The notes beneath the pieces are model-generated. The model was not told where the DNA came from. It did not search any database and saw only the letters and a program-made list of their open reading frames with translations. Shown piece by piece: positions 16,219-62,095 of a DNA stretch of 64,000 bases (the stretch's first letter is position 1; every line of letters begins with the position of its first letter). Both the position numbers and the translations under genes were made by a program. This DNA is from a virus, in IMG/VR virus record IMGVR_UViG_3300020438_000029, positions 1 through 64,000 of that record. One strand, written 5' to 3'.

Positions 16219-17358
16219 ATGAAAGTATTAGTTTTTGGTGATGTAATAATCGACAAATATATCTATGGTACTTCAGAACGCATAAGTCCTGAAGCACCTG
16301 TACCTGTGGTCAAATATCAGCGTGAAGTTGAAACACTAGGCGGAGCAGGACTAGTATACGAAAATCTTAAAAGTCTAGGTGTAGATGTTACACTATTACA
16401 AACTGAACAACCGCGTAGTATCAAGACGCGAGTTATTTGTGACGGGCATTACATTACACGAATAGACGATGACAAAGTGGCCGATAGTACTGCTGTACTA
16501 AGAAATGTATTGCGTAGTGATTTTTCTCAATGGGATTATGTAATACTAAGCGATTACAACAAAGGCGTACTTGACGAATCTCTAAGAATTATCGAACATC
16601 TAAACACATTTGGATGCAAAGTAATTGTAGATCCTAAAGAACATGCAACCCAATACAAAGGCGCATGGTTAGTAAAACCTAATAATGTTGAATTTACTAA
16701 GTTTGGATTTAACGAATGGCAAGGTAATATTATCACAACAAACGCAGGCGAAAACGTAGTTGCCAGCATAGACGGTGTTGATTATAACCTGCCTGTTGCA
16801 CAAGTAGAAGTATCAGATGTCACCGGTGCAGGTGATTGTTTCTTGGCTGCATTTGTATATGGATTAACTAAGAATTATGACTATACGCAATGTTTAGAAC
16901 TTGCTATAAAAGGATCTAAACGTGCAGTACAGCATGTAGGCACCCATATACTTACACATAATGATATTGAAGAACATGTAATCTTTACAAACGGTGTATT
17001 TGATATTATGCATACAGGACATTTTAATTTACTAAAAGAAGCACGTAGTTTAGGCGACAAACTTGTAGTTGGTATTAACTCAGATGCAAGTGTAAAACGT
17101 CTAAAAGGTAACGATCGTCCAGTAAACAATATAGAAAAACGTGTTGAACAAATATCTATACTACCATGGGTAGACGAAGTTCACGTTTTTGATCAAGATA
17201 CTCCTTATGAGTTAATTAAACATATACAGCCTAACTTAATTGTAAAAGGCGGAGATTATACTGTTGAAACTGTAGTAGGACATGATTTAACTGATGTGCA
17301 TATTATACCTACAGTAGACGGATACTCAACAACACAAATTATAGAGAATAGCAAATGA
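16219..17358 (+). CDS. hldE: HldE-like bifunctional heptose-7-phosphate kinase / heptose-1-phosphate adenylyltransferase
   Basis: HldE makes D-glycero-D-manno-heptose 1,7-bisphosphate and, after GmhB removes the 7-phosphate, couples the sugar to AMP. Residues 1-245 form a PfkB/ribokinase-type kinase: GDVIIDKYIYG at the start, GGAG at 41-44, and the anion hole and catalytic base DVTGAGD with D206. Residues 252-379 form a nucleotidyltransferase: FTNGVFDIMHTGH with HTGH at 265-268, GINSDASVKRLKG, and a late IVKGGDY strand. At 379 residues it is about 100 shorter than E. coli HldE (477), mostly in the kinase part, where the segment between residues 40 and 65 is compressed. Its ATG is at the predicted transcription start. 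Its stop overlaps the hldD start (ATGA). Confidence 0.9.
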   Translation: MKVLVFGDVIIDKYIYGTSERISPEAPVPVVKYQREVETLGGAGLVYENLKSLGVDVTLLQTEQPRSIKTRVICDGHYITRIDDDKVADSTAVLRNVLRSDFSQWDYVILSDYNKGVLDESLRIIEHLNTFGCKVIVDPKEHATQYKGAWLVKPNNVEFTKFGFNEWQGNIITTNAGENVVASIDGVDYNLPVAQVEVSDVTGAGDCFLAAFVYGLTKNYDYTQCLELAIKGSKRAVQHVGTHILTHNDIEEHVIFTNGVFDIMHTGHFNLLKEARSLGDKLVVGINSDASVKRLKGNDRPVNNIEKRVEQISILPWVDEVHVFDQDTPYELIKHIQPNLIVKGGDYTVETVVGHDLTDVHIIPTVDGYSTTQIIENSK

Positions 17359-26454: not shown

Positions 26455-27375
26455 TTATAATCCAAATGCTACTGAAAATGCTACTGCTGTTTTATCAACA
26501 TATCCTTTATTTGCTACACTTTTCTTTGTTGTTAAAACATTATTAACATCAGCTGATGTAAATGTAGCAGTCGAAGGTGTTGTTGCACCAATTGTCGTAT
26601 TGTTAATAGTACTTTCTGTTATGTTACTAGTATTTATAGGAATCGACAACCCTGTACTATTAATTTCTCCTACAAAAGAACTGTTGTTTTTAATAACAAT
26701 TTTATTTGCAGCGTCTAATTCTAAGTTTGTGTTTGACGTAATATTACTAATTCCAACACCATTATAAGCAACACCATTAGTTGTTATTTTACCGTCAACA
26801 AATATATCGCCGCCAATCCCGGCGCCTCCCTTAACAACTAATGCGCCAGTATCACCACTTGTGGCGGCGGTTGTAGATGTAAGTACTAAATCACCAAACT
26901 GTCCTGCAGCATCAGTAATTGTAATTATATTGTAAAGGCCTGTAGCTACATCACCGTAATATAATGTGTCTGGAGCATCTGCAGGTACTGTAAACTGTAG
27001 TACACCATCAGTATTACCCTGTGCCGCTGCTCCTGTAGTTATTACACCGTCGTCATGCGTATGTTGTAATCCCGTATTATATAGTGTGCCCAGGTCGTCA
27101 CTAAAAATACTAAATGTATTTTCAGTTAATTCTAAATTAAATGTAAATCGTGTAACTCTAGTAAGTGCTAAGGAAGGGTTTTGTGCAGCTTCTCCGTTAA
27201 GTTGGTAGTAGCCTATTTCGTCAGTGAATGAATAATCAGTTACCTGTGTACCGCCGCTGCCGCCTGCGCCGGCAGCTTGTATGCTAGTAGCAATTATATT
27301 ACCTTGCTCGTCGACAGTAAAGTTTGGACTTGTAAATCCAAACTGGGAACTAAAAGGTTTATTTACTACAGGCAT
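26455..27375 (-). CDS. Virion protein with degenerate cupredoxin-like domain
   Basis: A 306-residue protein, probably part of the tail or a fibre. Residues about 70-150 resemble the cupredoxin domain of the 1493-residue protein: NTFSIFSDDLGTLYNTG corresponds to the histidine loop and APDTLYYGDVATGLYN to the Cys-His-Met loop. The four copper-ligand positions are F88, G141, A144 and L147, so copper binding is lost. Later come an ALVVKGGAGIGGDIFVDGKI beta-helix type segment and a trimerisation-like C-terminus ending KGYVDKTAVAFSVAFGL. It has a late promoter CATAAATA and a Shine-Dalgarno CGGAGA. The giant gene follows 3 bp after its stop. Confidence 0.8.
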   Translation of the reverse strand: MPVVNKPFSSQFGFTSPNFTVDEQGNIIATSIQAAGAGGSGGTQVTDYSFTDEIGYYQLNGEAAQNPSLALTRVTRFTFNLELTENTFSIFSDDLGTLYNTGLQHTHDDGVITTGAAAQGNTDGVLQFTVPADAPDTLYYGDVATGLYNIITITDAAGQFGDLVLTSTTAATSGDTGALVVKGGAGIGGDIFVDGKITTNGVAYNGVGISNITSNTNLELDAANKIVIKNNSSFVGEINSTGLSIPINTSNITESTINNTTIGATTPSTATFTSADVNNVLTTKKSVANKGYVDKTAVAFSVAFGL

Positions 27376-29314: not shown

Positions 29315-29890
29315 ATGATACACAGTTTATTTCCAACTACCGTATACAATATACAGATTGCTGATACAATGCGACTCGAGTTGTTAGACGCATGTAATAG
29401 CGTGTTGACAGATGTAGGTGAAGATCATTTACTGAATATAGAAGGTTGGAATAGTACATTACACTCGGCACCTGATGAGTCAAATGTTATTAATAATATT
29501 CCTATAGTTATTGAAACATTTAAACTTATTAAAGAATCTATACAAGATTTTTTAAATCAAAGAAACCAACCATATTTTGAAGAAGATATGCAACACCCGT
29601 TTGGGTTTTTTAGTGATATGAAAAACAATGGACATTTACGTAGACATGCACATTTGGATTGTAAATTTAGTGGAATTATATATTTAGAAGTAGGCGATAA
29701 TGTTCCTCCTTTAGTATTTCATGATCCTAGACCGTATACTAAATTTGAATCTAGTAAATACTGTACTAATCCTGTTGTTACTATTCCGCCGCGACAAGGA
29801 ATGATGTTGATATGGGATCACTGGTTAGAACATGAGGTGTATACAAAAACAAACGATAATCCTCGTAAAAGTTTTACGTTTAATATTTAG
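29315..29890 (+). CDS. 2-oxoglutarate/Fe(II)-dependent oxygenase
   Basis: A 191-residue double-stranded beta-helix oxygenase of the small phage type (2OG-FeII_Oxy_5-like). The iron-binding facial triad is H113-x-D115 in HAHLDCKFSGIIYL and H173 in DHWLEHEVY. R184 in NPRKSFTFNI is placed to bind the 2-oxoglutarate carboxylate. The HPFGFFSDMKNNG region and the terminal strand fit the family. Such enzymes hydroxylate proteins, nucleic acids or small molecules, and the substrate cannot be told here. It directly follows the paralogous pair with no spacer and is 8 bp upstream of a second oxygenase. Confidence 0.85.
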   Translation: MIHSLFPTTVYNIQIADTMRLELLDACNSVLTDVGEDHLLNIEGWNSTLHSAPDESNVINNIPIVIETFKLIKESIQDFLNQRNQPYFEEDMQHPFGFFSDMKNNGHLRRHAHLDCKFSGIIYLEVGDNVPPLVFHDPRPYTKFESSKYCTNPVVTIPPRQGMMLIWDHWLEHEVYTKTNDNPRKSFTFNI

Positions 29891-29898
29891 GAAACATA

Positions 29899-30498
29899 AT
29901 GGATAAAAATTTTAGAGAATCTATCCAATGGCTTAGCGTTCCAATACATTTTTGGGAGTTTAGTTTTGAGGATACCGACGAGTACTCTGTAGAAGAATTA
30001 CACAATGATGTAGAGCGTGTTATTAAAGAAGTAGGCGATGCTAGAAATAAAGAAACAAATGTAAAGGCTACTATAATGACCGATTGGCTTATGACCGATC
30101 ACAAGCCATTTAAATATATTTGCGATCATGTCGAATCTTTAATACAGCAATGGCACAAAGAAAAAAGTGACCTAGATTTAAAAACATTTATGACAACATG
30201 TTGGGGATCAATATATAATCGAGGAGACTACAGTGAACTACATGCGCATGTGCCTGCTTTGTATAGTTGGGTGTATTATGTAAAAGTAGACGACGATGCT
30301 GCTCCGCTTCATTTCCCACACGAACCCGGAATGTATTATAAGCCTAAATCTGGGGATGGGATAATTTTTCCCGGTTGGTTATCACACCAAGTACAACAAC
30401 ATCAAAGCGATAATGAAAGAATTATTGTTGTAGGAAACGTTGAAGGAACTGGTGCAATTAGTTACCCTCAACGTTCATTTACAGATGTTAATTTGTAA
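29899..30498 (+). CDS. Second 2-oxoglutarate/Fe(II)-dependent oxygenase
   Basis: A 199-residue protein of the same broad fold. The metal site is probably H115/H117 in YNRGDYSELHAHVPALYSWVYYV and H163 in IIFPGWLSHQV, with R174 in DNERIIVVGNV for 2-oxoglutarate. The W-G-S-x-Y-N-R-G-D approach is typical of 2OG-FeII_Oxy_5. It differs enough from the first oxygenase to have another substrate. The Shine-Dalgarno AGGAAAC lies just upstream. Its last 11 bp overlap the 3' end of the opposing carbamoyltransferase gene. Confidence 0.83.
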   Translation: MDKNFRESIQWLSVPIHFWEFSFEDTDEYSVEELHNDVERVIKEVGDARNKETNVKATIMTDWLMTDHKPFKYICDHVESLIQQWHKEKSDLDLKTFMTTCWGSIYNRGDYSELHAHVPALYSWVYYVKVDDDAAPLHFPHEPGMYYKPKSGDGIIFPGWLSHQVQQHQSDNERIIVVGNVEGTGAISYPQRSFTDVNL

Positions 30499-32323
30499 CT
30501 GTAATTAGTTTTCCGTATTCAGGAAGATACAAATATTCAATATCACAACTTGCTAGTGTACGTATTGCATCATCAAGTGTTTCTACAAGAGGTTCACCAC
30601 CTAAGTTAAAACTTGTATTAAAGATAATTGGACAACCTGTTGCATCCTTAAATGCTTTAATAATATCATAGTAATGTTGATTCTGTTCTCTAGTAACAGT
30701 TTGAATACGACACGTTCCGTCGACATGAATAATCGCTGGAATCTTTTCTTCAATGCCTGGCTGGCAATTTACAGCATACATCATACTAGGGCTATCTTCC
30801 ATGCCACGAAGATCAAACCATTCGTGTACATCATCTTGTAAAATACTGCCTGCAAATGGACGGAAGTATTCCCTATGTTTTACACTATTAACAAAGTCTT
30901 TGCCGTTAGGGTCTGTTGGATCATACAAAATACTTCTATTACCTAAAGCACGTGGTCCTGCTTCAGAACGTCCTTGAAATAAGCTAACAATGTTTTTTGA
31001 TGTAATTAGTTTTATAACATCTTCATTTGTTGCATCACTAACTGTTGCATTATATTTTTGTGCTGTTTCTTCTATTTCATCATCAGTATAATTGTATTCA
31101 AATCCAAGATATAATCCGTCAGTTGAATTATCGACTTTATCAAATTCTCCTTCAAGATCTTTGTATACTAACATTGCTGCCCCTATAGAAGTTCCAGCAT
31201 CATTTGACACTGGCTCAACATAGATGTTGATACCTTCATCTTTAAGTGCTTCTAAGTAGTGATAGTTTGCAACACAATTTAATCCATAACCTCCACTTAT
31301 AACCACATTTTTATTACCAGATAGATCAACAGCTTTTCTAATTAGTCTTACGATTTCGTCTTGCGATTGTGTTTGTACAGCATATGCAAGATCTCTTCTA
31401 TTTTCTAAAAATGTTAAATTTTCTACAGTTGGCATTTCTTCTTCATTCTGTGTAAATTCATATGCATCAGCATTTATATATGCACCGTTTGGATATGACG
31501 GAACGACAAAGTTTCTATTAGTTAGATTAAATGAAGTATGGCCAAACAGTTTAGGAATATTAGGATTTTCCTTGCCATAAGGAAATAATCCCATTGTTTT
31601 GCCTGCTTCAATAAAGTGCCAGCCACAAAAGTATGTTACTGCTTCATATGTTTTTACAATTCCTGCCGTATCTGAAATTACACACTCAAAAGTATGTCCT
31701 TCTGGGTCCATAAATGCCTCACCCGAAGATTCTTCAACTGTTGACAATGCTGAAGAAGCAGTAGCAACATGCTTATATAATGTACGAATATCATTTGGGT
31801 AGTTACAAGAAAAAATTGATTCAGTTTCCCAACCTGGTACTGATGGCATTCCAGTGCCATTGTGATCTTGTTTAGCAACCGCCATTACAGATCCTGCACC
31901 ATCTACAATTACTGCAACAGCAGATTCAAATCCACTTCTATAAAACGCACATGCAGCATGTAGTTTATGATGTATTTTACCTAAGTTAATTACCTGAGGA
32001 TGGCTTCCGTCAAAATTATTTTGACTATCATCCCTAGAAATTAGTCCTGTCTTCCTAGCAAAAGCAGTATATATATCCTCCCCTGAAAAATCGGCTTGTA
32101 TTGTTTTTAAGTCTTCTGTTGTATGACAAATAACAAGATATTCTAATGTATCAGTATATTCTAATATTTTCATCATAGCTGTTGTTGGAGTGCCGTCGTA
32201 CTTACGTCTTGATAAGCGTTCTTCTTCTATGGCAAAAACTACTTCACCGTTTTTTAAAAGACATACACTTGCATTATGTCCACGTGTTATGCCTGCAATC
32301 CAAATATCTCTTTTGTTCGTCAT
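30488..32323 (-). CDS. NodU/CmcH-family O-carbamoyltransferase
   Basis: These enzymes transfer a carbamoyl group from carbamoyl phosphate, through carbamoyl-adenylate, to a hydroxyl, usually of a sugar. The 611 residues show both domains. The N-terminal Kae1/ASKHA-like domain has GITRGHNASVCLLKNG and EEERLSRRKYDG at the start, the metal-binding HHKLHAACAFYRSGF segment near residue 115 and GGYGLNCVANY near 345. The C-terminal domain has QGRSEAGPRALGNRSIL, HREYFRPFAGSIL and FNTSFNLGGEP. Length is normal for the family. The start overlaps the GT9 stop (TAATG), so it is coupled to a glycosyltransferase, which suggests carbamoylation of a glycan. Confidence 0.93.
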   Translation of the reverse strand: MTNKRDIWIAGITRGHNASVCLLKNGEVVFAIEEERLSRRKYDGTPTTAMMKILEYTDTLEYLVICHTTEDLKTIQADFSGEDIYTAFARKTGLISRDDSQNNFDGSHPQVINLGKIHHKLHAACAFYRSGFESAVAVIVDGAGSVMAVAKQDHNGTGMPSVPGWETESIFSCNYPNDIRTLYKHVATASSALSTVEESSGEAFMDPEGHTFECVISDTAGIVKTYEAVTYFCGWHFIEAGKTMGLFPYGKENPNIPKLFGHTSFNLTNRNFVVPSYPNGAYINADAYEFTQNEEEMPTVENLTFLENRRDLAYAVQTQSQDEIVRLIRKAVDLSGNKNVVISGGYGLNCVANYHYLEALKDEGINIYVEPVSNDAGTSIGAAMLVYKDLEGEFDKVDNSTDGLYLGFEYNYTDDEIEETAQKYNATVSDATNEDVIKLITSKNIVSLFQGRSEAGPRALGNRSILYDPTDPNGKDFVNSVKHREYFRPFAGSILQDDVHEWFDLRGMEDSPSMMYAVNCQPGIEEKIPAIIHVDGTCRIQTVTREQNQHYYDIIKAFKDATGCPIIFNTSFNLGGEPLVETLDDAIRTLASCDIEYLYLPEYGKLITVTN

Positions 32324-41386: not shown

Positions 41387-44300
41387 CATTCCCATTCAAG
41401 AACAGCGTAGCTTTCAACATATCACCTAATACGCCGTCGGTGAAATTTATTTGATCTTCAAAATTAACTACTCCAGTTGGAGAGCTTATTTCGTCTTGAT
41501 TTAGTATATTTGTTTGTCCTGCTAATAATCCACTGACTACAACATCTGCGCCACCGCCGCCGATTTGTGCTTCAATAAATGTTTTTAGTGCTTTTTGTGT
41601 TGGTACAATATTATCACTGTTAGCAGCTAGTACACCATCTGTACTAAATTCTCTAACAACTGCACTAGTGCCGCCTAATGACACGCCGCCTAATCTTAAT
41701 TCAGTTAATCCAGACAGCTGGAAGTCATCAGCGTTCAGTGTAATAACACCAGTAGCCTGTTCAACCTTAAACAATTCACCAACTCTAAAGTTGCCGTCTT
41801 GGTCAGTACTTGTGTAGAACACTCTACCACCTCCACTGTCAACTGCTTCGTTAGGTTGGCTAGGTTCGTTTGCAGAATCAAAGCCAGTTATATATCTTTG
41901 AGGATATTCGGTAGATCCAATATTTCCTGTACCAATATCTAAGAAATCGTGTCCTGTTAAACGTACCTGACTGTAACTTTCTCTAATAGTAATACCTGTT
42001 GCATGTGCTTGTGTCGTATTTGATTTTAAATACGGTGTTATTGCTAATGTTGCTGTAAAGTTTGGAGCAGTTCCGGTAATATTTGAAATATCAACTACAG
42101 CATAAATTGTATCAGTTCCTGTAAATTCTAAGTTTGCTCCTGGTCCTGGAATCAATGACAATCCTGTAACATCAATAGTTGATCCAACTGGATACTGGTC
42201 TGCATAACCAGCTCCTGATACAGTTGCAACAAACGCAGACACATAATTTGAACCTCTGCTTGTCCATGTAGGTTGTGCTAATACACCATCTCCGATTCTT
42301 ACTTCCCATGCTCCGGGAGAGGTAGCGTTTGGGTCTATAATTGTAATGGTTGGCGGTGTAGATGAAACATAACCTGAACCTGGTTCAATAATTTTGAACA
42401 CGTTTAATCCTCCGCCGGAGATAGCAAGTCTTATAAACGCTGTTGTACCGCTAGTCGGATCGTCTACAATAACTCTTGGTTCGATTTGATATCTACTTGT
42501 ACTATCGGGTTGAACGATAGTCGCTCCAGTAAAGTGTTCCCAGCCAGCCGAATCATCTAATTCTTTAGCTACTGTAGCTATTTTTGAGGAGTCATCAAAC
42601 GCTGTAATATAGCCGTATTGTCCTGCTCCTGCGCCACTAATAATAACTATTCTCATACCGTTGTAGTTTGCAAAGGTATTAATATCTGCACCTGACAATT
42701 TCATAGTACCAAGGCCTAAATCTCCGCCATCTTGTGCATTACCTTGTAATTGTAAATATCCAGTACCTAATGATAATTCACCGATTCCTGTTAATCTAAC
42801 TTGGAATATTCCGCCATCTCTAGTACTAGAAGTTGAAGCAGCAGCGCCGCTTCCTGCTCCAGTAACAGTATAAGTTGTATTTGTATCATACCCTTCGCCT
42901 GCATTTGCATATTCTACAGTTAGTACTTCATTACCATCAGTAACTACATTGTTAACAATTGCTTGTCCTGATCTATTATTTAATGAAGCAGTGATTGGTG
43001 TTTCAGTATTATCAACACCTTCTGCAACACTACCATATTTTCCGTATGAGTTGTTACCATTAGTGCCTCTAATTTTTCCGCCATTCTCTGCAAGATAGCC
43101 AATGTGGTTGTAGTATGTAAACACACTAACAAGCTCTGTTCTACCTAAATTTGTACACCATACACCAATACCGTCACTTAGTACCTGTGTAAAGTCGTTA
43201 GCAACAATAGAATCGTTGCCGCCGTTGTGCAGGTCTCCGTCAATTTTTAATCCTGTACATCCAGTACCGATTGTAGTTACATTTTGAATATAAGGAGATC
43301 TAGTTTTAATCCAAACACTTTCATCAGTTGGGCCAGTGCCTGGATCCAAACTTACATATGCTGCATCATTAACTGGGCGTTTGGTGAAGTATTCATTATC
43401 AACAGTTAATATGTCAAACAATCCTTGCATTGTTAAATTTCTAATGCCACTAGCATCTCTAACATAGAACATCTTAGTTGACTCGTATCCTATTTCTGGT
43501 TGAACAACTGTACTTCTTAATTCGTCTCCTACTAATGCACAACCTTCTGGTACACTAATCGGAAGTTCTTCACTATAAACTCCTGTTTTTATCATTACAG
43601 TTGAATTATTACGTTCAGAACGTTTAAAGGCATAAGTGCTGGCGCCGCCAGGATCAGTAACAGTATCAGAGTCATAATTAATTGTATCTACAAATGTTTC
43701 TGATGAAAACGTTGAAAACACTCTATTTAATTCGTTCCATAAATCATCACATGCTGCTTTAACAGTAGGAGTATCTACATCAACTGAACTAGTACCTGCA
43801 ATATATTTGTTGTAGTATTTTACCCATTGGCGAACGTCAGAAACGCTGCCAGGAACTGCATCATCACCATTAAAATCCCAATATCTGTCGTTTGTTCTAG
43901 GATTAGTTGAATTAATAAGAGTTGTAAAATTTGGTGCGGTAGTCTCTATTGCTCCTGGATTTGCAATATATGACATTATACCACGTGCTACAATTTGTCC
44001 GTTAAGTTTATCTCTATATGTAGGATTAGCTCTAATTTGATCACATGCATATTTTATTGTTTTAAATGGTGAGTTTAAACTCTTTCCTCTTTCTGGATTA
44101 TCAATTCCATCTGGATGTACGTAGAACACATCAGCTATAAGATCAAGATCTTGCCAATCTACACTAGTACTTTCTGCACGTAAAACTTGTCCTTCATTAC
44201 CTCTAGCAAATCTTTGCTTGTTTAGTTTAGCAGGATCGTTTGTATATGTAATTAAATCACCACGTGTTGTTAGTACGTTTGATGTTTTACCTTCAGCATG

Positions 44301-45863
44301 TAAATTCCATGTTACTGAATCAGTATCTGGTCTTTTACCTGTTGTTGATATATGCTTTACTGTACAAATATATGTGTTTGATCCATACGTTGCAAGATCT
44401 TCTAGTTTGTATTCTCTTTGATCAGCCCACTGACCTCTCCACTGTCTGCCGGGAACAACTACTTCCCAATGCGTTGCACTTGGAGGTTCAACTACATCTT
44501 CATTGTCTAAGATAGCAACATATAAGTAACCGTTGTGTCTAACAACATCTCCTACTTTGTATTCCTGCGAGCTATCATAATTATAATCGCCCTTGTGATC
44601 AAAGTTTTCATAAACTTGTTGCCAAGTTACTGTATCTGTTGCTTGTGGTTTTACATTTACATTATTTACTAATGCTCTATATCCATATCCACCATAGTCA
44701 ACTACGTCACCGATTTGATATTCAACTACTTCGTCCCATTGATTATCAAATTCCATTCCTTCTAAATATAAATTCCAATTACTTAATTCAGATGGAAAAT
44801 TTGTAGGGCTTGCTGAAACATGTTGAGTAACACACTTCCAAATACTTGAGCCCTTTTTAACAATGTCGTTAACTTTATAATTTACGCCAGCTGTGTGGTC
44901 TTGTAAATAATTAATCGCTTGAAATGCTATTTCCCATTTTTCAAGATCAGCTTCTAATCCTGTTAGTATAGTTGCAGAACTAGTATGTCCTGTTATACAT
45001 CTATACCAGGTTGCATTATTCTTTACAACATCATTTGGTCTGTAGCGTGTGTTGTTAATCCATGTACCCTTGTACGAATCTTGTTCTGAAAGAATGTGCC
45101 AATGTTGTGATTCTGACTCTAACCCAAGAGTAAGATCAGCAGTACTAGTATGTCTATCAATACATTTATAAATGTAGCCATTATAAACTACTATATCGCC
45201 TATATCATATATTGTTCCAACGGTCCAGTCGTTTTTATATACTTGCCCGTCAATTTGCTTTTCCCAGACTGCTTCATTAGATACATTAAAGTCATTGCCC
45301 ATTCCTGTGTGAAAATGACAGTAAAAAAAGAATGGTGTAGCATCAAGAGGAACAGTAATTCTTATTTCTCTATAATGTGCAGTGTTAAAATTAGCAACAT
45401 AATTGTCACCAGTAACTTCAGTATGGTTAATATAATATTTTACACCGTCTTCAAATCTAAAACCACTGTTTACTAATGTACCATCTTCTGTTTTGCTAAA
45501 GAACATAGGATGAGGATTTGGCGTTCCTCCGTTAGCATTTGGAAAATAAACGTTAGTTTGATCGTCTTGATTGAATACGTATGTTAAACCTTTCTTTAAC
45601 GTAATTTCAGGACTTAGTTGTCCTGAAACTCCATTGAAGTAATAAATGTTTGCTGTGTCAGCAGCATTTCTTGCTACAGTTACATATACTTCTTGATCCA
45701 ATGTGCCAAAGTCAATATCAAAAGATGCTGCTGACGTGTGTCCTACACGACATACATATGTCGACCCTGCATATTCTACAATCTCGTCTTTAATGTATGC
45801 AGTAGTCGGAGACCATTGATTTTTCCATTTAAAACGTATTCTATCTAATTTAAAATCTGCCAT
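41382..45863 (-). CDS. Modular fibre/virion protein with CBM-like repeats and a cupredoxin domain (1493 residues)
   Basis: Paralogue of the 1815-residue protein: both start MA-(D/E)-FKL-x-RIRF-x-WKN and share the C-terminal RLTGHDFLDIGTG region. It too has seven W...Y..D.V...G..Y.C...H repeats, but a domain of about 140 residues (55-195) is inserted after the first one. That insert looks like a cupredoxin, with possible type 1 copper ligands H118 (NPHPM), C182, H185 and M188 (YCHFHTGMGN). Later parts contain GNNSYG and SVAEGVDNTET beta-helix segments also present in the paralogue. The Shine-Dalgarno is AGGATAA. A host-adhesion or appendage role is inferred. Confidence 0.85.
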   Translation of the reverse strand: MADFKLDRIRFKWKNQWSPTTAYIKDEIVEYAGSTYVCRVGHTSAASFDIDFGTLDQEVYVTVARNAADTANIYYFNGVSGQLSPEITLKKGLTYVFNQDDQTNVYFPNANGGTPNPHPMFFSKTEDGTLVNSGFRFEDGVKYYINHTEVTGDNYVANFNTAHYREIRITVPLDATPFFFYCHFHTGMGNDFNVSNEAVWEKQIDGQVYKNDWTVGTIYDIGDIVVYNGYIYKCIDRHTSTADLTLGLESESQHWHILSEQDSYKGTWINNTRYRPNDVVKNNATWYRCITGHTSSATILTGLEADLEKWEIAFQAINYLQDHTAGVNYKVNDIVKKGSSIWKCVTQHVSASPTNFPSELSNWNLYLEGMEFDNQWDEVVEYQIGDVVDYGGYGYRALVNNVNVKPQATDTVTWQQVYENFDHKGDYNYDSSQEYKVGDVVRHNGYLYVAILDNEDVVEPPSATHWEVVVPGRQWRGQWADQREYKLEDLATYGSNTYICTVKHISTTGKRPDTDSVTWNLHAEGKTSNVLTTRGDLITYTNDPAKLNKQRFARGNEGQVLRAESTSVDWQDLDLIADVFYVHPDGIDNPERGKSLNSPFKTIKYACDQIRANPTYRDKLNGQIVARGIMSYIANPGAIETTAPNFTTLINSTNPRTNDRYWDFNGDDAVPGSVSDVRQWVKYYNKYIAGTSSVDVDTPTVKAACDDLWNELNRVFSTFSSETFVDTINYDSDTVTDPGGASTYAFKRSERNNSTVMIKTGVYSEELPISVPEGCALVGDELRSTVVQPEIGYESTKMFYVRDASGIRNLTMQGLFDILTVDNEYFTKRPVNDAAYVSLDPGTGPTDESVWIKTRSPYIQNVTTIGTGCTGLKIDGDLHNGGNDSIVANDFTQVLSDGIGVWCTNLGRTELVSVFTYYNHIGYLAENGGKIRGTNGNNSYGKYGSVAEGVDNTETPITASLNNRSGQAIVNNVVTDGNEVLTVEYANAGEGYDTNTTYTVTGAGSGAAASTSSTRDGGIFQVRLTGIGELSLGTGYLQLQGNAQDGGDLGLGTMKLSGADINTFANYNGMRIVIISGAGAGQYGYITAFDDSSKIATVAKELDDSAGWEHFTGATIVQPDSTSRYQIEPRVIVDDPTSGTTAFIRLAISGGGLNVFKIIEPGSGYVSSTPPTITIIDPNATSPGAWEVRIGDGVLAQPTWTSRGSNYVSAFVATVSGAGYADQYPVGSTIDVTGLSLIPGPGANLEFTGTDTIYAVVDISNITGTAPNFTATLAITPYLKSNTTQAHATGITIRESYSQVRLTGHDFLDIGTGNIGSTEYPQRYITGFDSANEPSQPNEAVDSGGGRVFYTSTDQDGNFRVGELFKVEQATGVITLNADDFQLSGLTELRLGGVSLGGTSAVVREFSTDGVLAANSDNIVPTQKALKTFIEAQIGGGGADVVVSGLLAGQTNILNQDEISSPTGVVNFEDQINFTDGVLGDMLKATLFLNGNG
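41775..41825 (-). repeat. 51-bp identical block shared with 36285-36335 (copy 2)
   Basis: These bases are identical to 36285-36335, in the same orientation and the same reading frame of the paralogous gene. Such blocks allow homologous exchange between the two fibre genes. Confidence 0.85.
45275..45700 (-). other. Cupredoxin-like domain with intact type 1 copper ligands
   Basis: Encodes residues about 55-195 of the 1493-residue protein. The His loop NPHPMFFS and the Cys-x2-His-x2-Met loop YCHFHTGMGN are both present, separated by beta strands, as in small blue copper proteins. Confidence 0.72.
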
Positions 45864-46593: not shown

Positions 46594-49500
46594 TTATCCT
46601 AATGTTATTGCGTATTCAATTGCTAAATCTTCTGCTGCTGTTACACTAATTGAACCAGTTGCACCTGCTACAGAAACCCAACTAAATCCGTCCCATATTT
46701 CTAAATACCTTTGTTCTGTATTGTACCGTACCATTCCGGTTTCTCTATTTGCAGAAGCTGGACGCTGTACGTTTGTTCCAACTGGTACAATAAATCCGCC
46801 AGTACCGTCAATTTTAAAATATCCAGCGCCACTTTGTTCAAATAATGTAACCGCATCTACCGCTCTATTGGTAATAGTCGAATCTTTAAATGCAAGATCG
46901 TCTATAACTACAGCACCTGTTCCGTTTGACGACAGTACTAAATCAGTATTTATCGTAGTTGCTTCGATAGTATTGCCATCAATCACAATATCGTCTACTT
47001 CAATTCTAGGTGTTTCTAGTTTATCTGCATCAATTGTAGTTACTATAGTATCTTGTATATAAAATCTAATTACACCATCATTAGCACCGGGTGTTAATTC
47101 TGCTGTAATACGTGTATCTAAGTCTAAATCATAAACGCCATTGAGCGCAATCCAGTTGCCGTCATACCCTTCATACAAGTTTGTTTCGGTATTATAACGA
47201 ATCATACCTGTTGCAGGAGCTGGACGACTTGCTGTGTTTCCTTTTGGAAGTTGTAACGCACTTGACGAACTAATTCTAACTGTGCCGCTGTCTGAATCTA
47301 AATTAATATCGCCTGACAAACTTTCAATTGTATTACCACTTAATCTTAAATTTCCTGTTTCAATTTTGTCACCAGTAATTGTAGTAACGTTGCCACCAGT
47401 ATTAATAGTTATGCCACCAGTAGTGTCAATATTAAAGTCTGATGTAGTAAAATCTACAGTACCTGTTGATTGATCAATATGGAATAAATCACCAACTCTA
47501 AAATCACCTTTGTGATCAACTGAGCTATATCTTACTTTTGCTCCGTTTAATTCATTAACTTCATTTGCTTGTATTACATTTGTCTCGTCGTTGTCAGTTA
47601 ATTTACCTGTGCCAATGTACGCTAAGTTTTGACTTACTAGGTACATTAATACGCCTTTGCCGTCGCCTACTACTCCGTAGTTTCCATATACACATGCACT
47701 TGCAATAGAACGCAGTTCTGCGCCAAAGTCTGTAGTATCTGCTAATGTTATATAGTTAGCTGTGGCTCCGCCGCTAAATCTTATGTCTTGTGAATTTAAA
47801 GTGTCATCTGGAAATACTGTTGCTGCATTAGTTCCATTAAAGTGTAATAACAATGATGTATCTGTATCACTTGTTTCTTCCGATGTTGGAGCAACAAAAT
47901 TACTAGTATATCTAGCTACACCTTTTGAAACTCTTAATTCGTCAATATAACCGTTAAAATAATCTGCTGAGCCGTCAAAAATAGATCCAATTACTAATGG
48001 TTTAGCTGTGCCGTAATCATGATTGTCAGTATATGTTGCACCCGATTGTGTTCCGTTAACAAATAATTTTGTACTTGTTCCTGATTTTGCCAGTGCTATG
48101 TGTGTCCAAGTATTTGCGCTTATTGTTGCTCCAGCGATTTGATTTCCGCTATTTGTATAATAAAATAGTTGATTAGATGCATCAATGTATATCATGGGTG
48201 CTAAATCAACTGCTGAACCTGCTCTAAAGTCAACAATAGTTTGGACAGTACCTGGATTAGTATGGTAAATCCAAAAACTTATTTCTAATTCGTCAGTACC
48301 AAAGCCAAAGTCATCTTGTGATGTTATTCCAACGTAGTCGCCAGTGCCGTCAAGTAATAAACTTGTTTGTCCAAATTTCTTCTGTGTTGTACTTAACTGA
48401 GCATCAGCATATGCTGTAGTAGATTTGCCGCCGCGCTCGGCAGCAGTTTCTAAACCTGTTAAGTTGCCTGGTATATAAAATTTACCGTCTGAATCAACAC
48501 TATCAATTGTTCCTGTTGCAAGAACTGTAACACCGTCAGTATCGTAGTAAGTAAATGTTTCCGCAGCACTAAATGTTCCTGTAACATCACTAACTCTTAC
48601 TGAAGTTTTTCCTGCTGCTTTTAATCCTGTAGCACCGTTAAGTGCATATAAGCCTCTGTTTGCAAAGTATGTAAAACAGTTTAACCATTCTACTCTAACA
48701 CCGTTAGTAACAGTTAATGCATCTACTCCAGGCGTAATAAAAGTTACACTATGAAATAAACAGCCAGCTTCTCTTGATGCTGAATTTGCTATACTGCCGT
48801 CAAGTTTTGCACCACCGCCAGCATCACCTTGAGCAAAGCCTCTTGGGTCGTCTGCTGGTGTAACACTACCTGATGTAATTACACTTACATTTCTAACATA
48901 TGGTGATCTTGATGTTACTGTAAAGTTGTTTGCAAACTCAAAAGCATACCCTGGAGCAAAGAAGTCTTTAATTGTAACATCTTCGATTGTAGATTCACCG
49001 TTGAGCAAAAATGCTGTGTTGTTAATAGAACTAACATGCGGTACAATATTTACGCTACGAAGACTGTGTCCTTTTAGCGTTACACCGGCTGGTATAGTCA
49101 TTGGAAATAATTCTGTATATACACCTGGATAGATGTGAATAGTATCGCCTGCTGTTGCTTGACTTAGTGCATGTTTAATTGTTGCATAGGGGTCATTAGG
49201 ATGATCGCCTGTATAAGTGTCGTCGCCATTTTCTGCAACATATAATGTATTACCTTGGCGAAGTGCTAAGTTAATTCCGTCTGCAAGAATGTTAGTAGTA
49301 GTTACAGTGCCAGCATAAAAATTATTAGTCCATGTGTCTTGCCACTGCGTACCGCCTTGTGCTGGATCACTACCTAACTGATATGTGTCTGTTGCGTCAG
49401 GAATAATATCTGAATTAATTTCTGCATTAAAAGTGACATTGTCAGTATCTGCGTCTCCGATTGTAATACTACCGTCTGCTGTAATGTTTCCAGTTGCAGT

Positions 49501-49926
49501 AATATTACCATAGACATTTGTATCACCGTATATTTCAACAGTTCCGGTGCCGTTTGGATTTATTTGTAAATTGGTATTTTCAGAGTTTGTACTGATAACA
49601 TTGTTTTCGATATCGAAGTCATCAATAACTAATTTTTGTTGATATACAGTATTTGTATTTGCGCCAAGTTGAAGTCTATTTGTTACAGAAGATACAGTGT
49701 TGCCAGAGATTCTAACATCACCGAAAGCACCATCGCCTGGTACTTCTAAATTAGTTGTTCTTGTAGTTCCGGTTACATCTAGGTCATACTGGGGACTTGC
49801 ATTGTTTATGCCGATGCGACTGTTTGTAACATCTAGATATAGTAAGTCATTCTCAAAAGCTAGATCCACTCCCTCACGAAGCAGGTTTGCTTTTAAGAGC
49901 GGACCACTTATTCGACCAATAGCCAT
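46594..49926 (-). CDS. Modular fibre/virion protein with LamG lectin-like insertion (1110 residues)
   Basis: Paralogue of the 814-residue protein upstream: both contain RIGG/RISG-xLLKxNLxRxGxDLAFENDLLYLDV at the start and the VRVEWLNxFTYFANRGLYAxNG landmark. Right after that landmark comes an extra segment of about 260 residues whose last 200 (about 502-699, 47830-48420) are a concanavalin/LamG-like domain: FGQTSLLLDGTGDYV, FGTDELEISFWIY, NTWTHIALAKSGTSTKLFVNG and GYIDELRVSKGVARY. After it the two paralogues rejoin. The C-terminal part has repeated MIRYNTETNLYEGYDGNWI and TGMVRYNTEQRYLEIWDG modules. The gene has a 115-nt leader from a late promoter. Confidence 0.87.
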   Translation of the reverse strand: MAIGRISGPLLKANLLREGVDLAFENDLLYLDVTNSRIGINNASPQYDLDVTGTTRTTNLEVPGDGAFGDVRISGNTVSSVTNRLQLGANTNTVYQQKLVIDDFDIENNVISTNSENTNLQINPNGTGTVEIYGDTNVYGNITATGNITADGSITIGDADTDNVTFNAEINSDIIPDATDTYQLGSDPAQGGTQWQDTWTNNFYAGTVTTTNILADGINLALRQGNTLYVAENGDDTYTGDHPNDPYATIKHALSQATAGDTIHIYPGVYTELFPMTIPAGVTLKGHSLRSVNIVPHVSSINNTAFLLNGESTIEDVTIKDFFAPGYAFEFANNFTVTSRSPYVRNVSVITSGSVTPADDPRGFAQGDAGGGAKLDGSIANSASREAGCLFHSVTFITPGVDALTVTNGVRVEWLNCFTYFANRGLYALNGATGLKAAGKTSVRVSDVTGTFSAAETFTYYDTDGVTVLATGTIDSVDSDGKFYIPGNLTGLETAAERGGKSTTAYADAQLSTTQKKFGQTSLLLDGTGDYVGITSQDDFGFGTDELEISFWIYHTNPGTVQTIVDFRAGSAVDLAPMIYIDASNQLFYYTNSGNQIAGATISANTWTHIALAKSGTSTKLFVNGTQSGATYTDNHDYGTAKPLVIGSIFDGSADYFNGYIDELRVSKGVARYTSNFVAPTSEETSDTDTSLLLHFNGTNAATVFPDDTLNSQDIRFSGGATANYITLADTTDFGAELRSIASACVYGNYGVVGDGKGVLMYLVSQNLAYIGTGKLTDNDETNVIQANEVNELNGAKVRYSSVDHKGDFRVGDLFHIDQSTGTVDFTTSDFNIDTTGGITINTGGNVTTITGDKIETGNLRLSGNTIESLSGDINLDSDSGTVRISSSSALQLPKGNTASRPAPATGMIRYNTETNLYEGYDGNWIALNGVYDLDLDTRITAELTPGANDGVIRFYIQDTIVTTIDADKLETPRIEVDDIVIDGNTIEATTINTDLVLSSNGTGAVVIDDLAFKDSTITNRAVDAVTLFEQSGAGYFKIDGTGGFIVPVGTNVQRPASANRETGMVRYNTEQRYLEIWDGFSWVSVAGATGSISVTAAEDLAIEYAITLG
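47830..48420 (-). other. Inserted LamG/concanavalin-like domain
   Basis: About 200 residues with the typical LamG pattern: a GxxSLxxDG start, an I/L-S-F-W-I-Y strand, a W-T-H-I-A-L strand and a Y-I-D-E-L-R-V-S end. It is absent from the 814-residue paralogue. Confidence 0.82.
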
Positions 49927-50060: not shown

Positions 50061-52505
50061 TTAACCAAGTACTATGGCGTAAATATCGACTAATTCTTTA
50101 AGCACTACGTCAGTAACTTCAGCGCCTTCACCAGCTGAACGCTGCCATTCTTCGCCGTTCCAAGTTTCGAGATATTCTTGGTCTGTGTTGTATCTAGTCT
50201 CGCCTTCGATTGGAGATGGGTTTTGTTGTGCTTCTGTTCCGACCGGAATAACTAAGCCAGTCGAACCGCCAAATTTTACATAACCATTATTAGTTGTAGA
50301 CAGTGTTAAATTATTAGCCGATGTATTGTAAAATGTACTATTTTTTAAATCAAAGTCATATACATCTACTACATTTGTAGCTGTAGTTCTTTTAAGTTCT
50401 AGATCTGACTGTGAAAGTGTTGTCGTTACTAAATTATTGTCAAACAATATATCGCCAGTTGATAGTCCGTGTAAATTAGTACTATTACTGTCAATGGAGC
50501 CTACTTGTGCGCCAGCAGCTCTGAGAATTATAGTATTATTAGTATCGTGTGTATCTATACTTTCTTGCCTATCGCTTGAATATATACCACCTAAACTTAA
50601 ATTACCTGAAGAATAACCTTCGTATAAATTTGAATCTGTATTATATCTAATATCAGCTTGTAAGTTATTTCTTTGTATATCTGTACCATTACTTAGAATT
50701 AAAGAAACATTATTATCTGTATTAAATAATCCAGTAACCGGAGATAGTGTTAAATCTCCATCAATAGTAGTTATTGTATTTCCGTTAATTCTAATATTGC
50801 CTACATCAACTTTTGATCCATCAATAAATGATCTTTCAAGACCGTTGCGCACTGTTATAGAACCAATACCACTAAAGTCAATTGTACTAGCATCAATGCT
50901 TGTTGAACCAGTTTCAAAATCTACAAAGAAGTTGTCTCCAACTTTAAATGTACCGTCTGCATCAGTTGTTGTGTAATATATATTTCCAGAATTTAATTCA
51001 GTAACTTCGTTTGCTGTAACAGTAAGTGTTCTATCATTTGATACATCTTTTCCTACGCCAATATAAGCAAAATTATGTCCTATTAGATACATTAGTGTAT
51101 TTGCGCCATCTGCTTCTGCACCTTTAGTGCCATACACATTTGCCGAGCCTATTGATCTTATTTCTGCACCAAATGTTGTGCCGTCGTTAGCTTTACCAGC
51201 AGTTCCGTTTGTTGCATACAATCCTCTATTAGCAAAGTATGTAAAGCTGTTTAGCCATTCTACTCTAACGCCATTTGTCATTGTAATACAATCTACGCCA
51301 GGGGTAATGAATGTAGCTGAATGGAAAAGCATACTAGCTTCTCTAGTACTAGACCCTGTTGATGCTCCATCAATTAAAGCACCTTTGCCTGCATCGCCTT
51401 GATCAAAACCTCTTGGGTCATTGGCACTTACAACACTACCTTTTGTAATAACTGTTATGTTTCTAATATACGGAGAGCGGTCTGTAATTATTGTATTAGC
51501 AGCAAAAGTAAACGCATGTCCTGGGCTATAAAAATCTTTAATTGTAAGATTTTCAATTGTAACATTTTGATTCATTTCAAATGCATTGTTTGTATTTGTT
51601 CCAGCTGTAGGTTTAATAATACAGTTTCTAATATCTTCGCCTGATATAGTAACTCTTTCAGGAACAACTAAAGGAAATATTTCTTCGTATTCTCCCGGAT
51701 AAACATGAATAGTTACTGGACCTTGTGTACTTGCATCAACTACACTAAGAGCATGTGACAATGTACGGAATGCTCCGTGTTGATGATCACCGACATTAGT
51801 ATTACTACCAAGTGTGCTTACATAAAATATGTTGCCTTGGCGCCTTGACAGAGCTGTACTTTCTACAATCACATTATCTACAAATGTTGACGTACCGTTT
51901 AATAAGTTACTGTAAATTGCATTCCATCGTTTTGTCTGCGATCCTAACGCATTTGCATTTGAAGAGTTTGGTAAGATGTCGCTATTAACATCAGCAGCAA
52001 ACGTAACATTATCGTTATTGTCGTCACCTAAAGTTAGATCGCCTGCAAATGTTATATTACCAGTTGAATGTATACTACCGGTCGAATTCCAAGAGCTTTG
52101 GATTTCAATAGTTCCTGTTCCGTTTGGTCTTAGTTCTATATTAGTATTGTCTGTGGTTGACGAAAGTTCATTGGCATCAAATTTTAAATTTTCAGTTTCA
52201 ATTCCTGTTGCAAAGATATCACCTGTTGAATTTAAGTTAATAGTATTTTCAACTAACTGAGTTATTGCATTACCTTGCAATTCAAAACTACCTAAGTTAA
52301 ATGTACCAGTTGTTATTGCATTAGTTGTTCTAATTGGAGAAATTGTAGTAAGTACATCAGGACTTGCCATCGATGTAGTATTAATACCAATTCGATCATT
52401 ATTAACGTCTAGATAAAGTAAATCGTTTTCAAATGCAAGATCAATACCTTGACGTTCAAGATTACTTTTAAGTACGCCACCACCAATTCTACCTACTTGC
52501 GACAT
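50061..52505 (-). CDS. Modular fibre/virion protein (814 residues), paralogue of the 1110-residue protein
   Basis: A beta-rich virion protein that shares its N-terminal region (VGRIGGGVLKSNLERQGIDLAFENDLLYLDV), the DPRGFDQGDAGKGALIDG region, the VRVEWLNSFTYFANRG landmark and the C-terminal ETRYNTDQEYLETWNGEEW module with the 1110-residue protein. It lacks that protein's LamG insertion. Beta-helix-like repeats (ITFAGDLTLGDDNNDNVTFAADVNSDI) and right-handed-helix-type segments dominate. The C-terminus ends LKELVDIYAIVLG. It has a late promoter inside an inverted repeat and a GAGGGAAA Shine-Dalgarno. Probable long tail fibre or appendage component; the exact place in the virion is unknown. Confidence 0.83.
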   Translation of the reverse strand: MSQVGRIGGGVLKSNLERQGIDLAFENDLLYLDVNNDRIGINTTSMASPDVLTTISPIRTTNAITTGTFNLGSFELQGNAITQLVENTINLNSTGDIFATGIETENLKFDANELSSTTDNTNIELRPNGTGTIEIQSSWNSTGSIHSTGNITFAGDLTLGDDNNDNVTFAADVNSDILPNSSNANALGSQTKRWNAIYSNLLNGTSTFVDNVIVESTALSRRQGNIFYVSTLGSNTNVGDHQHGAFRTLSHALSVVDASTQGPVTIHVYPGEYEEIFPLVVPERVTISGEDIRNCIIKPTAGTNTNNAFEMNQNVTIENLTIKDFYSPGHAFTFAANTIITDRSPYIRNITVITKGSVVSANDPRGFDQGDAGKGALIDGASTGSSTREASMLFHSATFITPGVDCITMTNGVRVEWLNSFTYFANRGLYATNGTAGKANDGTTFGAEIRSIGSANVYGTKGAEADGANTLMYLIGHNFAYIGVGKDVSNDRTLTVTANEVTELNSGNIYYTTTDADGTFKVGDNFFVDFETGSTSIDASTIDFSGIGSITVRNGLERSFIDGSKVDVGNIRINGNTITTIDGDLTLSPVTGLFNTDNNVSLILSNGTDIQRNNLQADIRYNTDSNLYEGYSSGNLSLGGIYSSDRQESIDTHDTNNTIILRAAGAQVGSIDSNSTNLHGLSTGDILFDNNLVTTTLSQSDLELKRTTATNVVDVYDFDLKNSTFYNTSANNLTLSTTNNGYVKFGGSTGLVIPVGTEAQQNPSPIEGETRYNTDQEYLETWNGEEWQRSAGEGAEVTDVVLKELVDIYAIVLG

Positions 52506-60337: not shown

Positions 60338-60345
60338 TATTTATA
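60338..60345 (-). promoter_or_regulatory. Consensus late promoter TATAAATA, 5 nt before ATG
   Basis: An exact TATAAATA on the minus strand overlapping the gp20 stop codon. Five bases separate it from the ATG at 60332, so transcription is predicted to start at the A of the ATG. Confidence 0.7.
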
Positions 60346-62095
60346 TCGTTTGTTCAGTTCCTGAACTAGAAGCTCCTAGTTCATTGCCCGTTACTGTTTC
60401 AGGACCTGTATCCGAGCCGCCGTCTTCGGCTCCGGTTTCAGTATCTACTTCGTCTTCTAAGTTTCCTAAATCATTACTGATTCCGCCACTGCTAATTCCT
60501 GCATCACGCATTTCTGCACCAGCTTCTCCAGGAATTGGAGATAAGTTTTCTTCGTTTTCTTCTCGCCATAGACGTTCATTCTCAGCAAGTTCTTCGTCAG
60601 TTAAGCCTAAGAAGCGTTGCATTGCAAAGCGATTTGAAATATAAGGTATTGCACTCATTTGTGTATATGTTGGTACACGAGCATTGTCAATTTCACTCTG
60701 TCTATATGCTGCAAAGTTCTGCGGTGGCTGAAACTTAAGATCAAACATTGCAACATCAACATTCATACCTTTTTCTAACAAATAACGTTTAAACTCTGTG
60801 TCAAATTCTTCAACTACTAGATTTTGCAAACGTTCACAATAGGTATTGAAGCGTAGCTCTTGGATATAAGCTGTACCCACACGTCCGTCATTATATTGTG
60901 CTGCTGAATCATCTGCTCCAGTTGGTAAGTACGAACTTGGGATACGTAAGCCGCGTACCAGCTTATTAGTAAAGTATCTAAGGTCATCAATCTCTCCTAG
61001 GTTAGTGCCGCCCGGAAGTGTTTCAACTTTAGAGCCTCTGCCTTCAGCAGTTTGTGGGAAAAAGTAATCTTCGTTGATTGACAAGGGATTGTATGAACTG
61101 TCTATGACATTTTGGCCTCCTCCTGTGGACGATGGGATACGTCTTTGATGTATTTCCGTTTTAACACGTTCCACAAATTGCATAGCAAGGTGTGAAGGCA
61201 TGTTACCCACATCAACGTAGAATACTCTTCTTTCTGGTGCTCGCTGTACACGATAGATAATAATCGCGTCTTCTAATAATTCTTTTTGCTTATATACCTT
61301 AAACACAGTTTCTAATAAGCTATTACCAAACGGATAGTTCTGATCTAAACCTTCGGATAAACTTAGATGCACTACGTGTTCTGAATTTACTGTAACTTCG
61401 GAATCGTCTGTTGTAAATCTTGAGCCTCCCATGCTTGACTGTGGTTGCCCAACCATTCCACGTGCGCCGCCTGTTGATTGGTATTGTCCGCCGTTGCCAC
61501 CACCTGTTATATTTCCGTTAGTTACTACCGGAGTAGTTGCAACACCATCTTTAAAGTTAAAATTAATATTTTTAATTACATATTGCTCTGGTACTTTACC
61601 TTCGCTTTCATTTACAATAATACGTGTTACATTTGCAGGATCAACATGAAACCATTTTTTAGTTTCTGGATCTCTTAGGAAGAATTGATCTCCCATCTTA
61701 AATATATTACGAAGAATTCTAAAAATCTTTGTTTCAAAATTTTGTAGTTTGTTCCATTGCTGTAAATATTTTTGAACAATAGTAACTTCAGAGTTAGTTG
61801 CCTTTTGCTTAAAGTCGATTATAAACGGAGTGTTATTTTGTTTATTTTTTTGTGTGCAAAATTCAGCAAGAATATCAAGAGCAGCATTAACTTCACTATC
61901 TTGATCCATTGTGTTATATTGTCCGTAACGTTCAACTCTATTGGGAGAACCTACATAAACATCAGGCAAGTAACTTGAATAGTTAGAACGAGCAGGGCCT
62001 GCCATGTTGCCGCTATTTTTTGTTGTAAACGGACTGTAACTGCCGTTTTGATTATTGCCTGTTGGCACAGGCGTAAAATATTTTTTCCAACTCAT
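60341..62095 (-). CDS. gp20: Portal vertex protein (T4 gp20-like)
   Basis: The dodecameric portal through which DNA enters and leaves the head. The 584-residue protein (T4 524) has the conserved helical core: RVERYGQYNTMDQDSEVNAALDILAEF near residue 50, an IFKMGDQFFLRD strand, a YRVQRAPERRVFYVDVGNMP segment and an LPGGTNLGEIDDLRYFTNKLVRGLRIPSSYLP region, all typical of gp20. The C-terminal 60 residues are acidic and low-complexity. A GGAGAATTAA Shine-Dalgarno precedes the ATG, 11 bp after the upstream gene. gp21 to gp23 follow on the same strand, as in T4. Confidence 0.95.
   Translation of the reverse strand: MSWKKYFTPVPTGNNQNGSYSPFTTKNSGNMAGPARSNYSSYLPDVYVGSPNRVERYGQYNTMDQDSEVNAALDILAEFCTQKNKQNNTPFIIDFKQKATNSEVTIVQKYLQQWNKLQNFETKIFRILRNIFKMGDQFFLRDPETKKWFHVDPANVTRIIVNESEGKVPEQYVIKNINFNFKDGVATTPVVTNGNITGGGNGGQYQSTGGARGMVGQPQSSMGGSRFTTDDSEVTVNSEHVVHLSLSEGLDQNYPFGNSLLETVFKVYKQKELLEDAIIIYRVQRAPERRVFYVDVGNMPSHLAMQFVERVKTEIHQRRIPSSTGGGQNVIDSSYNPLSINEDYFFPQTAEGRGSKVETLPGGTNLGEIDDLRYFTNKLVRGLRIPSSYLPTGADDSAAQYNDGRVGTAYIQELRFNTYCERLQNLVVEEFDTEFKRYLLEKGMNVDVAMFDLKFQPPQNFAAYRQSEIDNARVPTYTQMSAIPYISNRFAMQRFLGLTDEELAENERLWREENEENLSPIPGEAGAEMRDAGISSGGISNDLGNLEDEVDTETGAEDGGSDTGPETVTGNELGASSSGTEQTI

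Follow-up and report, generated by a model that had tools for sequence, protein, structure and literature searches.

Cupredoxins are otherwise known as electron carriers, secreted or at the membrane side, and as domains of enzymes. The metal of a type 1 copper site is buried, with only one histidine edge exposed, and the first ligand histidine is followed by proline (HP) in laccase type 1 sites, whereas plastocyanin has HN. Such sites accept other metals in vitro, and the glutamine ligand of stellacyanin-type proteins lowers the potential, a change which tunes the site rather than destroying it. The fold can also serve without metal, the ephrins and most factor V/VIII domains being precedents for metal-free cupredoxin scaffolds. 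Plastocyanin genes are known from cyanophages, petE of P-SSM2 being one, and encode separate soluble proteins, and a blue copper centre on a virion would be the first known to us. On the fibres of T4-like and marine phages (T4 gp37, Alteromonas phage R22Y) the presence of iron has been proposed via HxH motifs (PMC11705849). Viral nirK (PMC8115048) is a different gene of enzymatic function and was set aside; in the open-licence literature we found no description of cupredoxins in phage structural proteins. Here we describe a domain of a phage tail fibre, a new setting for a cupredoxin, which belongs among these proteins as judged by comparison of sequences and profiles and has a type-1-like ligand set. 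By family cut-off it is neither an amicyanin nor a plastocyanin nor a member of Copper-bind.

The fibre gene and the inserted domain

The window, by which we mean the whole stretch of 64,000 nucleotides analysed (positions 1 to 64,000 of IMG/VR record IMGVR_UViG_3300020438_000029), belongs to a virus record of 67,461 bases in total, assigned to the T4-like phages because gp23 capsid, gp15 and portal genes are present. The tail-fibre gene P0001 (41382..45863, minus strand, as are all features of this gene given below) encodes 1493 amino acids, and the match of its product to PHROG 9851 'tail fiber protein' (E 6.9e-167), which covers the main fibre body at residues 794-1433 (41565..43484), bears out the first-pass annotation of a fibre protein. 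Likewise, the seven repeats described there correspond to seven CBM_5_12 stretches found with Pfam (E 1.9e-36, the best at residues 213-243), repeats 2-7 occupying residues about 211-525 (44289..45233, limits approximate). Tail genes adjoin the fibre gene, those at 46594-49926 and 50061-52505 matching baseplate wedge PHROGs.

By homology the phage appears to be a mosaic T4-like phage, combining a giant-phage-like portal with a fibre nearest to those of cyanophages and pelagiphages. The portal (60341-62095, minus strand) has its nearest relatives among giant phages, at 44-51%, with Atu_ph07 at 49%. Elsewhere in the window lie genes for a pfkB-kinase/cytidylyltransferase fusion (16219-17358, plus strand), a Nol-like carbamoyltransferase (30488-32323, minus strand) and a 2OG-Fe(II) oxygenase (29315-29890, plus strand), and P-SSM2 has genes like these close to its own tail fibres. 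Residues about 503-707 of the baseplate wedge-like protein encoded at 46594-49926 (minus strand) form a segment common to the virion structural PHROGs 18802, 701 and 24074, which by eye has the appearance of a LamG/concanavalin-type module.

The predicted cupredoxin domain occupies residues 55-197 of the fibre protein (about 143 amino acids; 45273..45701; profile match E 7.4e-48, together with AF2 and Foldseek). On either side of it stand the two parts of CBM5/12 repeat 1, namely the first part at residues 15-48 (45720..45821) and, 3' of the insert, the closing strand AVWEKQ (45255..45272), both delimited approximately by comparison with uninterrupted homologues. The order in the window is accordingly HTSAASFDIDFG, then the 143-residue domain, then AVWEKQ. 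The nearest fibres, those of S-CAM1, P-SSM2, Pelagibacter phage Mosig and Sf-FS3, have in common with it the N-terminus (MADF-L-R--F-W) and the repeats, lack the cupredoxin, and in repeat 1 pass from HTS directly to the closing Trp, for example in HTSASNEAQWYGSDGARWQLHTEG. Since these four isolate fibres are continuous at the point where that of the window is split, the module was inserted inside repeat 1 and not, as first supposed, after it.

The four putative copper ligands are His118 in NPHPM (45510..45512), Cys182 as the thiolate (45318..45320), His185 as the second histidine (45309..45311) and Met188 as the axial ligand (45300..45302), and their codons were confirmed in the 1493-residue reading frame at the places first assigned to them. 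His118 aligns with the first ligand histidine of the plastocyanin family via the intermediates described below, as Cys182 and His185 align with the corresponding ligands, and the placing of Met188 follows from the translation and from the C-x2-H-x2-M spacing, which is that of amicyanin. The spacing had been reported as shorter than in plastocyanin, which is correct, but it is not unusual, the identical arrangement being found in amicyanin (CTPHPFM, PDB 1aac). When YCHFHTGMG is written as a degenerate DNA pattern, the window contains one match to it, as against 0 expected from shuffling.

Predicted fold and kinship with copper proteins

The structure prediction for which the first-pass annotation had called was made with AF2 from a 42-row alignment of the phage domain family (A2), and gave a model with a mean pLDDT of 84.2 and a pTM of 0.81, the ten-residue blocks around the first His and around the Cys-His-Met loop reaching mean pLDDT values of 95 and 91. 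In domain numbering, H69 precedes a strand at 71-74, C133 ends a strand at 129-133 and M139 precedes a strand at 140-146, and these positions, taken with the homology, argue that the four ligands would come together in the folded domain. The closest PDB structures are cupredoxins. With Foldseek, every one of the 27 PDB matches with E<=0.001 has the cupredoxin fold, led by the cupredoxin AcoP of Acidithiobacillus ferrooxidans (7z3b, E 8.5e-5, 14% identity), with factor VIII, laccases, spinach plastocyanin and a pseudoazurin engineered to carry the amicyanin loop (2ux6, E 6e-4) below it. Amicyanin 1id2 (E 2e-3) comes lower in the full list. VIA-align places a nitrite reductase cupredoxin domain at Z 8.4 (rmsd 2.8 over 104 residues), and the next rows are likewise of cupredoxin fold. 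The TM-scores against PDB cupredoxins are moderate, at about 0.5, and a VIA Z of about 8 is middling; the predicted model, with its Foldseek and VIA matches, is nevertheless that of a Greek-key cupredoxin-type beta-sandwich. Two BFVD entries annotated as 'beta-sandwich proteins' of Marseillevirus and Pithovirus (A0A481YVH3, A0A481Z6J5) also match the model (E 4e-6 to 9e-6), so that candidate cupredoxin-fold proteins of giant viruses are possibly to be found among such matches.

The kinship of the domain with known copper proteins is visible only indirectly. The window domain alone gave no relevant match to Pfam, NCBIfam or PDB sequences; against PDB chains nothing fell below E 0.2 and amicyanin was not in the list, while weak matches to antibody and FhuA sequences were regarded as chance. 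Nor did the window domain match Pfam Copper-bind (PF00127), whose gathering cut-off of 21.2 bits is not reached by its short relatives either (up to 17.5 bits), although this family is their commonest sub-threshold match (6/7 short members, best E 0.003). Direct comparison of the A2 profile with classical cupredoxins is similarly weak, at a probability of 2-4%. The classical proteins were represented by an alignment (A5) of P-SSM2 PetE, amicyanin, two plastocyanins and pseudoazurin, the four reference sequences having been checked against PDB chains, and the bridge by an alignment of short phage cupredoxins (A6) with no sequence in common with A2, which was used in place of an earlier bridging alignment (A4) that had members in common with it. 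The profile of A2 matches that of A6 with a probability of 98.3% (E 1.5e-14), and A6 in turn matches A5 with a probability of 96.8% (E 2.5e-10). The His, Cys, His and Met of the phage domains coincide with the copper ligands in each of these two alignments, all in register, and no control made by reversal or column-shuffling scores above 19, as against 83 and 59 for the real profile pairs.

By these profiles it is through shorter phage intermediates that the window family is tied to plastocyanin, amicyanin and pseudoazurin, and at homologous positions the family has the His/Cys/His and axial Met/Gln set that is expected of a type 1 site. Together with the predicted fold, these links uphold the original proposal of a cupredoxin domain with the four type 1 ligand residues. 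The domain is best called amicyanin-like in its loop and not an amicyanin, since the loop fits and kinship at the level of sequence is absent. The protein does not have the architecture of a multicopper oxidase or nitrite reductase, with two or three cupredoxin domains and additional copper ligands: it has a single ligand-bearing domain, and the one other copy found in the record is ligand-less and in a different gene.

Spread of the family and conservation of the ligands

Relatives of the domain are encoded at 11 IMG/VR loci. In tblastn searches the window domain matched 272 phage records, and a short relative used as query matched 225, those of Pelagibacter and Methylophilales phages included. 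Beneath these matches lie genes for baseplate wedge, tail fibre, virion structural and unnamed proteins, and all 42 members of A2 match PHROG 708 (baseplate wedge subunit). With its ligands mostly conserved across these loci and records, the domain is more than a chance resemblance, and by these homologies it is one member of a family widespread among marine T4-like phages, numbering hundreds, rather than a peculiarity of one fibre. Searches of bacterial genome contigs and, with the short relative as query, of plasmids found no relatives, so that no recent host origin emerges from them.

Eleven of the best 80 IMG/VR relatives of the fibre N-terminus carry the domain family, at two different positions. 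In three of them (L117, L118, L119) the domain stands at the insertion site of the window, and in the other eight (L120, L131, L137, L173, L179, L180, L182, L170) at about residue 130, past repeat 1, where one or two additional copies often follow. Two positions and extra copies imply that gain or movement of the module took place on more than one occasion, and that it was duplicated. In the fibres of L131, L137, L173, L179 and L182 there are two copies, of which the first lacks the ligands while the second keeps its C-x2-H-x2-M intact. In P-SSM2 there are both a soluble petE and structural cupredoxins in a tail spike and a tail fibre protein (L108 1104-1448; L104 3611-6895; L108 37086-40598). 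The window itself has a degenerate second copy, without the Cys/His/Met ligands, at 26953..27225 (minus strand) within the gene 26455-27375 (profile match E 0.0018, rescored at E 1.4e-4 in a small set). Its host protein is structural-looking, and LYYGDVATGLYN stands at the place of C-x2-H-x2-M.

Proteins of the family are present in virions both with and without the site. In purified virions of S-SZBM1 the 'baseplate wedge protein' S-SZBM1_206 was detected by LC-MS with 9 peptides at 24.9% coverage, as was S-SZBM1_53 (PMC9146016). The former ends in a complete short cupredoxin site (SHPFEIR...YQCTIHSGM), outside which the MS peptides may lie, and the latter carries a ligand-less copy. Complete sites are also encoded by the isolates P-SSM2, S-TIM5 and Bellamy, and a ligand-less relative by L065. 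A virion proteome has also been published for S-CREM2 (PMC10665884), in whose tail region, the region checked, no copy of the domain was found.

To assess conservation, ligands were tallied in 47 representatives of less than 70% identity drawn from all loci in hand. All four (HCHM) are present in 30 of the 47, or 29 by the automatic tally, whose single TCHM row is a misaligned HCHM with a sequence that reads GHPF. Gln replaces the axial Met (HCHQ) in two, L093 (P-RSM6) and L120, which belong to two lineages and resemble in this respect the Gln-ligand site of stellacyanin-type proteins. The Cys is lost in 15, nearly all of which have lost the second His too. Of the 30 rows with a complete Cys, His and Met, 29 keep the first His (30 of 30 after correction), and where all three are gone this residue, 64 positions away, is lost in 7 of 12, a difference (7/12 vs 1/30) with a Fisher p of 2e-4 that takes no account of the kinship of the rows. 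On the tree, the fully ligand-less rows belong to two clades and the partly degenerate ones require four changes, which points to a handful of independent site losses and not to twelve. The core columns F41, Q43, D45, N48 and G62 stand at 92-100% in the ligand-less rows, and loss of the first His along with the distant loop, the fold being kept, is as expected for one metal site.

Proposed function and comparison with known systems

The explanation that we favour, to which as a whole we give about even weight, is that of a cupredoxin module of plastocyanin ancestry acting as a rigid building or adhesion block and probably holding one copper ion. The domain would be a mobile module of marine T4-like tail and baseplate proteins, lodged here in a loop of CBM5/12 repeat 1, and its basic job would be mechanical because it outlives loss of the site, a compact sandwich extending or decorating fibre and baseplate, near the N-terminal end of the fibre. 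Where intact, the site would take up one copper ion. In a reducing cytoplasm free copper is very low and disulfides do not form; as phage proteins fold in this compartment, loading is likely to follow lysis, probably after the virion has left the host, and the metal could be drawn from the water or from host copper proteins set free. Bound copper would then lock and rigidify the ligand loop and shield the free Cys182, much as a disulfide does in a secreted protein. Copper loading, its timing and a stabilising or adhesive role are what we infer for the module, and the site could in principle stay empty or take another metal, copper being scarce in both the cytoplasm and seawater.

Were the four residues relics, kept by chance or for packing in a metal-free cupredoxin-fold sandwich, the many relatives that lack the site and keep the core would be accounted for, as would the ligand-less second copy of the phage itself and that of the virion protein S-SZBM1_53. 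Such a reading is rather unlikely, since most copies, in phages that have diverged very far, keep all four ligands, and since relics would decay singly, whereas the losses are concerted at two places 64 residues apart. That the natural metal of the site is another soft one (Cu(I), Zn, Hg, Ag), or that the site mops up copper around the virion, is in keeping with the metals accepted by cupredoxin sites in vitro, and is nonetheless very improbable in view of a homology and a ligand set specific to copper proteins.

More active roles for the metal are possible and find no positive support here. Type 1 sites have an architecture made for electron transfer, and the Gln-for-Met variant occurs twice, as if the potential were tuned, so that a change of oxidation state at the host surface might be imagined to trigger a rearrangement of fibre or baseplate; neither a partner nor a second redox centre was found, however, and ligand-less copies occur in virions, and we think a device of this kind improbable. 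The location of the domain in fibre and baseplate, and the iron proposed for phage fibres via HxH motifs, would also suit a lure, in which fibre copper engages a metal-uptake receptor of the host as the copper analogue of the iron Trojan-horse proposal. Yet a type 1 site buries its metal but for one His edge, many copies lie in baseplate wedge proteins, where receptor contact is not needed, and the domain is missing from most fibre homologues; we would be surprised if this were its role.

The favoured reading of a mechanical module with a copper site admits a bolder extension, which we put forward tentatively and with some doubt, that blue copper centres are standard in marine T4-like virions, copper-loaded cupredoxins being borne on the fibres and baseplates of hundreds of isolates and of a still greater number of uncultured phages, with virions that are redox-active or metal-gated and ocean viruses that constitute a pool of bound copper. 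If cyanophage virions do contain copper, it would join iron in the debate on the metals borne by ocean viruses. The family itself would supply content for many genes now labelled 'hypothetical' or 'baseplate wedge'.

Among the named systems, the cupredoxin domains of laccase and nitrite reductase have a fold like that predicted for the phage domain (VIA Z 7-8), but belong to multi-domain enzymes with extra copper centres, which it lacks; AcoP, whose fold it matches at 14% identity, is a respiratory-chain cupredoxin of a cell. Fibres with HxH motifs resemble the present proposal in placing a metal site on a phage fibre, but with octahedral iron, HxH pairs and no cupredoxin. PHROG 708 and related cyanophage tail families are of the same domain family, and in their annotation, which is of baseplate or tail, no mention of copper or cupredoxin was seen. 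Plastocyanin, including the cyanophage PetE (P-SSM2 PSSM2_230), shares the predicted fold and, via the intermediates, the four ligands in register, but has the loop C-x2-H-x4-M where the phage domain has C-x2-H-x2-M; moreover PetE is soluble, host-like and matched by Pfam (E 4.7e-19), whereas the structural-protein family remains below the Pfam cut-off. Amicyanin has the same fold as that predicted here and the same short H...C-x2-H-x2-M loop, but is a soluble electron carrier of about 105 amino acids, as against about 143 in a fibre, and has Asn (HN) rather than Pro (HP) after the first ligand His. In the open-licence literature the family itself appears to be undescribed, while the spacing of its ligand loop was already known from amicyanin.
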